Shown: piece after piece, positions 29,986 to 33,764 of the stretch
Layout of the letters: each line of letters starts with the position of its first letter
Numbering within the stretch: the first letter of the stretch is position 1
NCBI GenBank assembly: GCA_028287765.1
Contig: JAQBPA010000269.1
Location: 1 to 34,965, forward strand
Source: Bacteriovoracaceae bacterium
Lineage (GTDB): Bacteria; Bdellovibrionota; UBA2394
Length of the DNA: 34,965 bases
Direction: 5' to 3'
Notes under the pieces: model-generated
What the model saw: only the letters and a program-made list of their open reading frames with translations
What the model was told of the DNA's origin: nothing
Databases searched by the model: none
Made by a program: the position numbers and the translations under genes

Positions 29986-30276
29986 CGATGGTTTCATGAT
30001 TTTAGGGGGTCGGAAGGGAGTAACCTTCGCATCAAAAGACTGGAAAGAATCCAAAATTTAGGGGAAGAGGTAATGAGCCAAACGTATCGAGCAAATAGAG
30101 CTCAGGCCCGAAAACAATAAAGAGAGGCATAAGAATAGAGTAGAAAAAAAGGTAGAAATAGCTCGGGCCCTAAGGGCCCATTCTGCCAAAGGCAGAAATA
30201 AAAACAAGTTAGAGCCCGCTCTACCAGCAAACGGTAAAAGTAATCGAAGTACCAGCACCCAAGTTTTCTCAAAGAT
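29986..30276. other. intergenic region upstream of tRNA-His with three small palindromes
   Basis: About 290 bp without a credible gene. Three perfect palindromes stand close together: GGGCCC-TAA-GGGCCC (30165-30179), TTCTGCC-AAA-GGCAGAA (30181-30197) and TAGAGC-CC-GCTCTA (30210-30223). They lie 50-110 bp upstream of the tRNA and could be leader structures or regulatory sites of its transcript. A hydrophobic minus-strand ORF across them has no ribosome site and is not called. Confidence 0.45.
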
Positions 30277-30350
30277 GGTGGATATAGCTCAGCTGGTAGA
30301 GCATCCGATTGTGATTCGGATGGTCACGGGTTCAAATCCCGTTATCCACC
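30277..30350 (+). tRNA. tRNA-His (anticodon GTG)
   Basis: A complete cloverleaf. The acceptor stem GTGGATA/TATCCAC has the extra 5' G(-1) paired with C73, a hallmark of tRNA-His. The D-arm is AGCTCAGCTGGTAGAGC, the anticodon stem TCCGA/TCGGA has loop TTGTGAT (anticodon 30311-30313), and the T-arm is ACGGGTTCAAATCCCGT. CCA is not encoded. It is transcribed away from nuo. Confidence 0.97.
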
Positions 30351-30503
30351 CGTCTTCCGCTTTGGACATTTTTCCCTGTGGACGGTTTGCTCCGCAAACC
30401 TCTTCGTTTTCTCCTCCTACTCGCTCGGTCAACGTGGATCTGACCACGTCTCTCTCGCTCGGGTGTCGTCGGCCTCGCCACAGGAAAAAATCGGAAGACG
30501 GGT
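30348..30503 (+). repeat. structured ~150-nt segment bounded by long inverted repeats, directly after tRNA-His
   Basis: ACCCGTCTTCCG pairs perfectly with CGGAAGACGGGT, and further in TTTTTCCCTGTGG pairs imperfectly with CCACAGGAAAAAA. Inside are two more perfect hairpins, GGTTTGC-TCC-GCAAACC (30384-30400) and ACGTGG-ATCTGA-CCACGT (30432-30449). The result would be a multibranched RNA or a small inverted-repeat element inserted at the tRNA 3' end. The paralogous site at copy C lacks this segment. ORFs crossing it include the tRNA or are Arg-rich shadows. Structured RNA versus mobile insertion is undecided. Confidence 0.6.
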
Positions 30504-30516
30504 TCCCCGTTTTTTT
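30498..30516 (+). terminator. probable Rho-independent terminator of the tRNA-His transcript
   Basis: ACGGG-TTC-CCCGT followed directly by six to seven T residues. The left arm is shared with the right arm of the long upstream stem, so the two structures are mutually exclusive. Confidence 0.6.
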
Positions 30517-30580
30517 CGGCTACGACGAGGAGCCTGTGCTTCATGAAAATTTTTTGCGACTCCATTTCATCTATTTTATT
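30510..30580 (+). repeat. dispersed repeat tail, copy 1
   Basis: A T-run followed by GGCTACGACGAGGAGCCTGTGC and then CGACTCCATTTCATCTATTT. The same arrangement with about 85% identity occurs at 32503-32570. In both places it follows an ATCCACCC motif (the tRNA 3' end here, repeat copy C there). Confidence 0.7.
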
Positions 30581-30590
30581 TATTTGCTCC

Positions 30591-30723
30591 GGAGGGGGTC
30601 AAGTTTGTTAGGAGCCAGGTCAATCGGACGCCTTATTGTTTCAATTTCCGTAATCCGCACAGCCCAAACATTTATTGGATAAATTTACGAGACCTGGCTC
30701 CTGACAAACTTGACCCCTCCTCC
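30591..30723. repeat. palindromic element 1 (GGGGTCA-headed inverted repeat, REP/MITE-like)
   Basis: GGGGTCAAGTTTGTTAGGAG continues into CCAGGTC and pairs with its reverse complement at 30691-30717 with one mismatch in 27 bp; flanking GGAGG/TCCTCC extends it. A 69-nt centre has no gene. The head GGGGTCAAG resembles element 2 at 33675, and similar heads are known to me from REP/RAYT-associated repeats. No transposase is in the window. Confidence 0.7.
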
Positions 30724-30731
30724 TCCATACA

Positions 30732-30820
30732 CAAACTCGTCCTGTCATCGCTAACGAAGTCCGCATTTAAGCGCATACGCGAGGCAAGCAGTTCCAAAAC
30801 TGTCTAACCATCCACCCATT
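30732..30820 (+). repeat. dispersed repeat, copy A
   Basis: First unit CAAACTCGTCCTGTCATCGC, then TAACGAAGTCCGC, then second unit GTTCCAAAACTGTCTAACCA followed by TCCACCC. The two units share GTTCCAAA-x-TCGTC-like starts, so each copy is itself a partial direct repeat. It resembles copy C most closely. Confidence 0.75.
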
Positions 30821-31011
30821 TTGATTCATCATGCGAGTACTCCCGACACTCATCAGGGATGGGCCGCGAGCGCCGGATAACGCTAAATTTGATAGACAGC
30901 ATGGCGACCGTTTACTACCCCTATTTGAAAAGTCTTTGAAAGAAAGTTTTGAAACTGTCAAAGCTGCTTGAAAAAATTCACGATTAATCGCTAACGATTA
31001 GGAGAAATCAT
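30821..31011. other. intergenic sequence between repeat copy A and the 66-aa gene
   Basis: 190 bp without a credible gene. Just before the ribosome site lies a small palindrome TAATCG-CTAA-CGATTA. The minus-strand ORF across this region is built largely from repeat copy A and is not called. Confidence 0.35.
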
Positions 31012-31300: not shown

Positions 31301-31390
31301 AAACTCAAACCCGTCAATATCCACCAGAAATCCCAAACTCGTCCCGTCATCTCTAACTGAGCCGCCTTTAAGCCGCAGTTGTTCAGATAT
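31301..31390 (+). repeat. dispersed repeat, copy B (units in reverse order)
   Basis: It begins with a second-unit-like AAACTCAAACCCGTCAATAT then CCACC, followed after a few bases by the first unit CCCAAACTCGTCCCGTCATC then TCTAAC. It diverges after TTTAAGCCGCA. It ends about 35 bp before the next start codon. Confidence 0.65.
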
Positions 31391-31424: not shown

Positions 31425-32438
31425 ATGCTCAGGGTTCTGGCCATTTTTCTTTTTTTATCGGTTCCTGTTTATGCTTCTCTACTGGATGGAGAACCGAGCA
31501 TTGACGACGACTTTGAGAAGATAGAACAGCTTCTCGATCTCGGATATCCTACGTTAGATCCGAGCGATAAGTTTCTTCATAAATTACTAGAAGAGAAAAG
31601 ATTTGATTTTTTTTATACTAAGTCCCCCGTTTTTGACAGATTAGTCCAAGATGTTTCTGAGCGATTTCGTCGAATACGTTTAAAAATCCTTAAGCAAGAA
31701 AATAACAAACTAGACACGGCTCGCTTCAATAATTTTTTAATCGTCGCAACCGAGAGAATGATTTACTGCCTCGATCGTCCTGAAACTTGGCCAATTGGAA
31801 GACGTCCTTTGCTATTTGCTGAAGATGCTTTGGAGTTGGCGATTCGGCCAAACGCTTCTTTCGTAAGCGCTCTCGTATCTCATGCTTGGGTGAGTGCATT
31901 TCGAAAGAAGCCTGATCCTGGTCTTGCGGAATATTTTCGATTGGCTGACCACGCTGTCTTTCAATTTTATGTGCAAATGCGCATGGACGATGATGCACCT
32001 CTTGCAAATCAAATTGCTTTTCTTAAAAAAATTAATGGTGCAGATCCACTTTGGAGAAAGTGGGCAATATCTATTTATAACGGCGCTGGTCCCTATGAAG
32101 AAGGGATGGAGATGTTAATGAGCGAAAAGATTCCAGATGATGTGATAAAAGTACTCACCCGAAATTGGAAACCCATCAGTGTGATTCAATCAAAGGAAAA
32201 GGCTCGCGCGAAAATTTGGGCAGGGAACGATGATTTTGATGAAAAGCTAGAAAAAATGCGCCGATTTATGATTACATTTAGAGAGCGAGCATTGTTACAA
32301 CTTGCGATGCATTTTGGGAAAGGTGTGATTTATTCAAAAGCATATGCCAATCCATTGAGGACTTGGGCAGCAGGCGTTTCACGAAGATGTAGCCTTTTTT
32401 TAAAAGGTTTAGTTCCAAGCTCGTCCCGTCATCCCTAA
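31425..32438 (+). CDS. secreted protein, unknown function, C-terminus encoded by repeat copy C
   Basis: 337 residues with a signal peptide (MLRVLAIFLFLSVPVYA) and a helical, acidic/aromatic mature part. No named family or catalytic motif was recognised. The final residues LVPSSSRHP and the stop codon come from dispersed repeat copy C, which begins at 32412. The native C-terminus may therefore have been replaced when the repeat arrived, or the repeat may be an integral 3' part of a cassette. No strong ribosome site was seen. It is flanked by repeat copies B and C. Confidence 0.6.
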   Translation: MLRVLAIFLFLSVPVYASLLDGEPSIDDDFEKIEQLLDLGYPTLDPSDKFLHKLLEEKRFDFFYTKSPVFDRLVQDVSERFRRIRLKILKQENNKLDTARFNNFLIVATERMIYCLDRPETWPIGRRPLLFAEDALELAIRPNASFVSALVSHAWVSAFRKKPDPGLAEYFRLADHAVFQFYVQMRMDDDAPLANQIAFLKKINGADPLWRKWAISIYNGAGPYEEGMEMLMSEKIPDDVIKVLTRNWKPISVIQSKEKARAKIWAGNDDFDEKLEKMRRFMITFRERALLQLAMHFGKGVIYSKAYANPLRTWAAGVSRRCSLFLKGLVPSSSRHP

Positions 32439-32502
32439 CGAAGTCCGCGTTTAAGCCGCATACGCGACGCAAGTGGTTCTAAAATCGTCTAACCATCCAC
32501 CC
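32412..32502 (+). repeat. dispersed repeat, copy C
   Basis: GTTCCAAGCTCGTCCCGTCA then TCCCTAACGAAGTCCGCG, a GT(C)CGCGT...ACGCGAC hairpin with one bulged base, then GGTTCTAAAATCGTCTAACC and ATCCACCC. It overlaps the last 27 nt of the preceding CDS. Confidence 0.8.
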
Positions 32503-32570
32503 ATTTTTTTTGGCTCCGACGAGGAGCCTGTGCTTGATGAACATTTCGCGCGACTCCATTTCATCTATTT
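32503..32570 (+). repeat. dispersed repeat tail, copy 2
   Basis: T-run plus GGCTCCGACGAGGAGCCTGTGC and CGACTCCATTTCATCTATTT, matching copy 1 behind tRNA-His. Here it follows ATCCACCC directly, without the 150-nt inverted-repeat segment. Confidence 0.7.
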
Positions 32571-32617
32571 CAATTTGAACCCTGACGAGATTGAACTCAT
32601 GATATAAGTTTGGATTA

Positions 32618-33586
32618 GTGTCGCTCTACCCGCCAATAGAACCATACAATTCCGGTCACTTGAAAGTGTCTGATCTTCATCAAATTTACTTTGAAGAGTG
32701 CGGCAATCCTAACGGAGTTCCAGTCGTTCATCTTCATGGCGGACCGGGGGCTTCCTCTCTTCCCGATCATCGAAGATTTTTTGATCCGAAATTTTATCGC
32801 ATTATTTTATTTGATCAAAGAGGATCTGGAAAAAGTATGCCTCTTGGTGAAATAAAAGAAAATACGACCTGGGATTTAGTCGAAGATCTTGAAAAGATTA
32901 GAATTCATTTAAATATTAATAAGTGGATAGTCTTCGGCGGATCTTGGGGGAGTTCTTTAGGACTGGCTTATGCTCAAACCCATCCACAATCTATTTCGGG
33001 AATTATTCTTCGAGGTATTTGGCTTCAGCAGAAATGGGAACTCGACTGGCTTTTTAAAAAAGAGGGCGCGGGCCAGCATCTTCCTGAGGCCTGGGATCGA
33101 TTTTCCAATTTTATTCCTCTTCAAGAACGTGATGACTTACTGAAAGCCTATCACTCTCGCATTCAAGCAGATGAAGGATCGATTCGAACCGAGGCAGTTT
33201 TGCGTTGGTATGAATGGGAAGCAGCTCGATATTCTTTGAAGCCAGAACCAGTGGAATCCTCGAAAGGAAATTCTCCGGCGCTCGTGGCGTTCGCAAAAAT
33301 TGAGTCACATTTCATGTTCAATAGAGGCTTTTTGAAGACAGAAGATCAGCTATTGAGAGGTGTTGATAAAATTCTCTCTATTCCAGCAAAAATTATTCAC
33401 GGACGCTTGGATATGACTTGCCCCGTAAGAGCAGCTGAATTACTTCATGCTAAGTGGCCAGAAGCAAGTTTGCAGATAGTCGAGAATGCAGCTCATTCAC
33501 CTTGGGATGCTGAGATGATCGAGGCATTGATAACGGCAACGGAAGAATTTAAAAAGAAAGTTCCAAACTCGTCCCATCATCCCTAA
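32618..33586 (+). CDS. pip: proline iminopeptidase (alpha/beta hydrolase, S33)
   Basis: 322 residues, the normal length. It releases N-terminal proline from peptides. HGGPG (40-44) forms the oxyanion region, DQRGSGKS follows, and the nucleophile is S109 in GGSWGSS. The acid is in HGRLDMTCP and the catalytic His in NAAHSPWD near the C-terminus. No signal peptide, so cytoplasmic. GTG start with a weak ribosome site. The last residues (VPNSSHHP) and stop codon are encoded by repeat copy D; the catalytic fold is complete before that. Confidence 0.93.
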   Translation: MSLYPPIEPYNSGHLKVSDLHQIYFEECGNPNGVPVVHLHGGPGASSLPDHRRFFDPKFYRIILFDQRGSGKSMPLGEIKENTTWDLVEDLEKIRIHLNINKWIVFGGSWGSSLGLAYAQTHPQSISGIILRGIWLQQKWELDWLFKKEGAGQHLPEAWDRFSNFIPLQERDDLLKAYHSRIQADEGSIRTEAVLRWYEWEAARYSLKPEPVESSKGNSPALVAFAKIESHFMFNRGFLKTEDQLLRGVDKILSIPAKIIHGRLDMTCPVRAAELLHAKWPEASLQIVENAAHSPWDAEMIEALITATEEFKKKVPNSSHHP

Positions 33587-33655
33587 CAAGGTCGCGGTTT
33601 AAGCAGCATACCCGACGCAAGCTGTTCCAAAATCGTCTAAGTACGCACTCGTTTT
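33560..33655 (+). repeat. dispersed repeat, copy D
   Basis: GTTCCAAACTCGTCCCATCA then TCCCTAACAAGGTCGCGG and TTTAAGCAGCATACCCGACG, then GTTCCAAAATCGTCTAAGTA. It overlaps the last 27 nt of pip and supplies its stop codon. The ATCCACCC end seen in copies A and C is missing. Confidence 0.78.
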
Positions 33656-33674
33656 TCTTCCCACTACCGCATAT

Positions 33675-33764
33675 GAGGGGTCAGGTCTGGTGGTTGCGAG
33701 AATTTAGGAGCTAGCAATTTCTGCAAGAGGGCGGTTTTTCGCAACCACCAGACCTGACCCCCTT
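33675..33764. repeat. palindromic element 2 (GGGGTCA-headed inverted repeat, REP/MITE-like)
   Basis: GGGGTCAGGTCTGGTGGTTG plus CGA (33677-33699) pairs perfectly with its reverse complement at 33739-33761 (23 bp), with a 39-nt centre. It lies between the convergent pip and the next gene and could act as a bidirectional terminator. It shares the GGGGTCA[A/G]GT head with element 1. Confidence 0.75.

Follow-up and report, generated by a model that had tools for sequence, protein, structure and literature searches.

Behind a tRNA-His gene of a Bacteriovoracaceae bacterium (Bdellovibrionota), in the 34,965-nucleotide stretch of DNA analysed here as the window, lies an inverted-repeat segment that we consider, with a probability of about one half, to be one copy of a new dispersed, non-autonomous hairpin element targeting tRNA 3' ends. 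The broader proposal, which we put forward tentatively, is that the family to which it belongs represents an undescribed class of nucleic acid, a GA-zipper rod placed with fixed polarity at tRNA, and possibly tmRNA, gene ends across the phylum, acting either as a mobile hairpin that targets tRNA ends and reproduces them inverted on insertion, or as an RNA in control of tRNA maturation. The features at and around the locus are as follows.

30278-30351, plus strand: tRNA-His (GTG), called by ARAGORN and Rfam RF00005; its last four bases, ACCC (30348-30351), open the closing stem.
30348-30359, plus strand: outer left arm ACCCGTCTTCCG, the locus-specific closing stem (inverted-repeat search, statistics of tRNA-anchored arms).
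30369-30490, minus strand: GA-zipper element, a member of family I (tRNA-Glu paralogue, covariance-model match).
30369-30381 with 30478-30490, read on the minus strand: P1 stem of the GA-zipper element, TTTTTCCCTGTGG with CCACAGGAAAAAA.
30384-30400, no strand given: extra small hairpin GGTTTGCTCCGCAAACC in the fold of the His copy, missing from the other 14 extracted copies.
30432-30449, minus strand: terminal hairpin of the element, stem 30432-30437 with 30444-30449 (folds, covariation of helix 6).
30492-30503, plus strand: outer right arm CGGAAGACGGGT, the tRNA end together with 8 nt, inverted.
30498-30516, plus strand: ACGGG-TTC-CCCGT and then a T-run, a possible intrinsic terminator as read in the sequence.
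30506-30581, plus strand: tail common to the tRNA-His locus and copy C, running into the family II fragment CATCTATTTTATTTATTTGCTCCG.
32411-32575, plus strand: copy C, a dispersed repeat ending AACCATCCACCC (to about 32502) plus the shared tail (32500-32575).

The inverted-repeat segment that the first-pass annotation had placed at the tRNA-His 3' end is real. Its arms, ACCCGTCTTCCG and CGGAAGACGGGT, show perfect 12-bp complementarity that includes the last four bases of tRNA-His and delimit a segment at 30348-30503, and an inverted-repeat search extended them to 16 nt at 94%. On either strand, the predicted fold of the 173-nt segment is more stable than those of its shuffles, with z-scores of -3.45 on the tRNA strand and -4.52 on the opposite one. 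The possible terminator hairpin (30498-30510) with its T-run, read in the sequence, and the outer right arm are mutually exclusive. On the 5' side of the tRNA gene (30180-30277), a small hairpin, CTGCCAAAGGCAG, precedes GCTCTACCAGC, which repeats the tRNA D-arm in inverted orientation, and sequence resembling this stretch is found 3' of tRNA-Thr(ggt) in the same genome (G000).

The annotation had also taken copy C and tRNA-His to be the empty and the occupied site of one element, an explanation that we now regard as scarcely tenable. The tail shared by the two loci speaks for it, being 76 nt long and 87% identical (30506-30581 against 32500-32575), and to this extent the sites are indeed paralogous; the supposed correspondence at the tRNA end is of another kind. 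The match ATCCACCC comprises only 8 nt and is the terminal part of a separate dispersed repeat of about 90 nt ending AACCATCCACC, present in seven copies in the genome (in the window at 30732-30822, 31333-31377, 32411-32511 and 33559-33659, and at loci L055 and L056), whose ATCCACC end is kept at two loci without a detected tRNA, on contigs C240 and C37. Because ATCCACCC ends this other family, and does so away from tRNAs as well, copy C was rejected as an empty site, and the tail itself includes part of family II, a tRNA-linked repeat. Two ORFs (31425-32438 and 32618-33586) terminate within copies of the 90-nt repeat, and no paired GTTRRRY core that would mark attC sites was read at dispersed repeats A-D. 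The window also holds two REP-like palindromes, at 30595-30717 and 33677-33761 (beginning GGGGTCAAGTTTG and GGGGTCAGGTCTGG), with arms of 26-27 nt at 96%.

A comparison of the segment with its own genome, which is 76% complete, by blastn gave two weak matches on contig C67, spaced like the two arms, and thereby a paralogue directly behind tRNA-Glu in the same orientation as at tRNA-His. The two copies share an identical core, TTTTTCCCTGTGGAC ... TCGCCACAGGAAAAAATC, and differ in their interiors, while their outer arms are different in sequence, yet paired in both; in the tRNA-Glu copy, the left arm begins at the encoded CCA. A MAFFT alignment of the whole His and Glu segments put the left arm in the wrong place. 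Exact copies of the core number two in the genome and none was found near tRNAs elsewhere in the phylum genomes or the GTDB contigs, the patterns otherwise matching only palindromes that lack a tRNA and seem to lie in coding sequence. Across the phylum, BLASTN of the segment returned only weak matches shorter than 40 nt, so the family was recovered solely through tRNA flanks and covariance models. A phage or plasmid origin of the segment was rejected, blastn having given no match.

A survey of tRNA flanks covered the 40 tRNA genes of G000 and those of four genomes of the same family and of different genera, 168 tRNA genes in all. Perfect inverted repeats of at least 9 bp starting inside the tRNA 3' end were observed nine times in these five genomes against 0.85 expected, and those of at least 12 bp six times against 0.0 in dinucleotide shuffles. 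Reading of the flanks showed copies of the same design behind various tRNAs in various genomes of the five. At tRNA-His itself, the intact element is missing in two relatives (G001 and G002) and is apparently truncated in a third (G003); together with the further copies in the genome, this shows that the segment is neither a constant companion of tRNA-His nor confined to it.

On the strand complementary to the tRNA gene, the sequence inserted at 30369-30490 forms a rod of about 100 nt in which a closing stem is followed by short Watson-Crick steps interspersed with GA/GA internal loops, and then by a small end hairpin. Most of the 15 extracted copies fold on that strand as the same rod, with a variable closing stem, 2-bp steps, GA/GA loops and a terminal hairpin. 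The loops, which read TC/TC on the tRNA strand, are predicted to form tandem sheared G-A pairs. GA is the most frequent dinucleotide in many internal-loop columns. The GA strand gave the lower-energy fold in 71 of 72 copies, and several copies have a G.U pair on it where the stem of the tRNA strand has a C.A mismatch.

Covariation supports this rod. Model R1 (alignment A2, 13 copies) was trained on tRNA-flanking copies, His not among them, although it contains no tRNA sequence itself. Two-sided changes occur in 23 of its 30 pairs, a result equalled by none of 500 shuffles, and 82% of cells are paired against at most 47% when the alignment is slid; mean column identity is 65%, with no conserved doublet. 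R1 detects the His copy (30407-30490, minus strand) at an E-value of 0.0053 in 207 kb and other untrained copies at about 1e-11 to 1e-13. The larger alignments were fitted to the model and are thus biased towards it, although their slide and shuffle controls stay far lower: 28 of 30 pairs covary among 28 copies. The alignment of 53 matches, mostly new and drawn largely from other families within the phylum, has compensatory changes on both sides in 29 of 30 pairs; 88% of its cells pair, against no more than 47% after sliding, and its covariation score is 0.673 against 0.18 in shuffles, none of 500 of which reached it. No Rfam 15 family matches the element at gathering score, permissive E-values returning only tRNA and chance matches, and the 6S RNA model (RF00013) matches neither the segment nor its own genome; 6S RNA and other known RNAs were accordingly rejected.

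Model R2 finds the family (E of at most 0.01) in at least 79 of 369 phylum genomes, a lower bound, as about 11 candidates were scored per genome, and at least eight times in the genome studied. By ARAGORN, which can miss tRNAs, 40 of 72 tabulated copies sit 2-21 nt from a tRNA, mostly 10-16 nt, and of the 49 copies at loci retrieved through the model search or later, 22 lie within 21 nt. In all 40 tRNA-adjacent copies the 3' end of the GA strand points to the tRNA, 34 lying downstream, with the GA strand antisense to the tRNA, and 6 upstream, with the GA strand sense. Some other copies abut, at about 9-16 nt, tRNA 3'-half remnants (L285), 3'-half copies (L254, L176 and L044), a tRNA-Met overlooked by ARAGORN (L328) or a tmRNA-like 3' end (L321). 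Part of the remainder lies between protein genes, including sense-strand copies upstream of what read, by sequence, as csrA, trmD and gcvT; at two loci (L298 in G222, L304 in G223), family I copies with the GA strand sense stand about 110-150 nt 5' of the putative csrA.

Beyond the modelled stem, whose ends conserve chiefly short T/A runs, the flanks of most copies are complementary: 31 of 56 copies contain an exact run of 7 or more, against 1.2% of shuffles, and, where inspected, their similarity is inverted, not direct. As these complementary flanks fall outside the model and differ between copies, the outer arm is site-specific. Short tRNA-anchored hairpins that lack the element also occur in relatives (at Cys in G002, the longest, Ile in G003 and Gly in G004; 3 observed against 0.3 expected) and may plausibly be candidate empty targets. 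Occupancy is patchy: of the 37 isoacceptors for which three or more of the five genomes were sampled, 16 are occupied in one genome, and hence one genus, only, Glu alone is shared three ways, and sharing is no higher than under random placement. This patchiness suggests repeated gain and loss of the element between genera, and part of it could be due to loss, the compared genomes being of different genera. With the tRNA-Glu paralogue and the phylum-wide covarying family, it lends strong support to the original suspicion of a small mobile or structured element.

How such copies might arise can be outlined from these patterns. A hairpin, single-stranded or as a cruciform, would be recognised by a putative trans-acting enzyme and transposed, preferably to where the 3' end of a tRNA has a dyad or a terminator-like stem; the target's own stem would then become the outer arm, with ACCC included at tRNA-His. 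Most simply, a hairpin already present at the tRNA end would take up the element in its loop; alternatively, the insertion itself would duplicate the flank in inverted form. Once inserted, it would lengthen the hairpin of the tRNA trailer and may help to terminate or protect the transcript.

Several of these observations would also suit the chief alternative, a structured non-coding RNA family, with the GA strand transcribed towards the tRNA, or a part of the tRNA/tmRNA trailer controlling 3' processing or termination. The copies diverge widely in sequence but retain the structure, which suits a functional RNA no less than a mobile element, and the strong structural constraint is compatible both with a recombinase-recognised hairpin and with a functional RNA. 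The strong covariation with 88% paired cells, the unequal folding of the strands in favour of the GA strand, the fixed polarity and near-constant spacing to CCA ends, the copy beside a tmRNA-like 3' end and the sense-strand copies 5' of putative csrA, trmD and gcvT all point in this direction, and the fact that about half of the model-found copies are intergenic without a recognised tRNA counts against mobility. However, an RNA is awkward as a trailer at the 34 of 40 sites with an antisense GA strand, and the patchy occupancy between genera also speaks against it; we regard it as possible but rather doubtful. That an ordinary bidirectional or tRNA intrinsic terminator was enlarged by chance, the outer stem and T-run being the feature and the interior filler, is very unlikely. 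A T-run does follow the stem at both tRNA-His and tRNA-Glu, and relatives do carry short tRNA-anchored terminator-like hairpins, but the conserved, covarying part is the interior, in at least 79 genomes, whereas the outer arms vary by site, and the covarying interior already contradicts the idea of a filler.

Other repeats accompany tRNAs in G000. Family II (L140-L151), found in the flanks of tRNA-Val, Thr(tgt), Cys, Pro(cgg), Ala(cgc), Ala(ggc), Gln, Leu(caa) and Phe, has an 85-nt core in 12 copies, 11 of which are downstream of a tRNA and share its strand. At several tRNAs, the unit goes on to repeat the T-arm and 3' end of the tRNA, and at Cys and Pro it does so in tandem. A third family begins directly at the tRNA end (ATTTTTGCCAGCAAAAATTGGCATGGGACGAT) of Asn, Ser(cga), Ser(gct) and Leu(gag), its right arm at Asn pairing with six tRNA bases. 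Direct copies of a tRNA's own 3' half stand 80-300 nt downstream of about 13 of the 40 tRNAs, as well as at L031, L043, L044, L152, L161 and L167, and inverted T-arm copies were seen at Asp, Trp, Lys(ctt), Glu, Pro(ggg) and Leu(cag). A second tRNA-Lys(ttt) (contig C49, 215-516; L139, L124) has an apparent D-loop insert of about 130 nt with an inverted copy of neighbouring tRNA sequence.

Family I offers a clean case, open to testing, of a repeat conserved in structure that recognises the 3' ends of tRNAs with no obvious integrase, and a covariance model is ready for a family missing from Rfam release 15. If the family is mobile, it would insert at tRNAs in a new way that does not disrupt them; if it is an RNA, it would be a new class tied to tRNA and tmRNA maturation in the phylum.

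Our search, mostly of open-access papers, found no description of such an element. REP/REPIN elements are mobilised by RAYT transposases; in REPINs, a spacer separates two short palindromes of highly conserved sequence, with compensatory changes reported on both sides of the hairpin (PMC3116915). Like them, family I is dispersed and non-autonomous and forms a hairpin with compensatory changes (here in 29 of 30 pairs); unlike them, it is weakly conserved in sequence, has no conserved palindrome doublet, forms a GA/GA rod and prefers tRNA ends. YPAL/RU-2, RPE and NEMIS are MITE-like palindromic intergenic repeats of about 100-170 bp, and YPAL targets span or adjoin dyad symmetry (PMC2229807); the main texts of both papers make no mention of tRNA. 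Family I resembles these repeats in its size, in its palindromic and intergenic nature and, for YPAL, in the dyad targets. Its copies, in contrast, share no terminal sequence, and the sequence-conserved terminal inverted repeats of MITEs are replaced by locus-specific outer arms; it also differs in its tRNA placement and polarity and in its phylum-wide conservation of structure. In Escherichia coli, the RtT RNA/tyrT 178-bp repeats are structured units right behind a tRNA gene, with copies of the tRNA 3' end. They resemble family II, whereas family I carries no direct copy of a tRNA, is found beside many tRNAs and lies mostly in antisense orientation. tRNA-targeting integrative elements favour tRNA and tmRNA 3' ends in a fixed orientation, both of which are also seen in family I, but the latter is just about 100 nt long and its flanks are inverted, not direct, repeats of the tRNA end.
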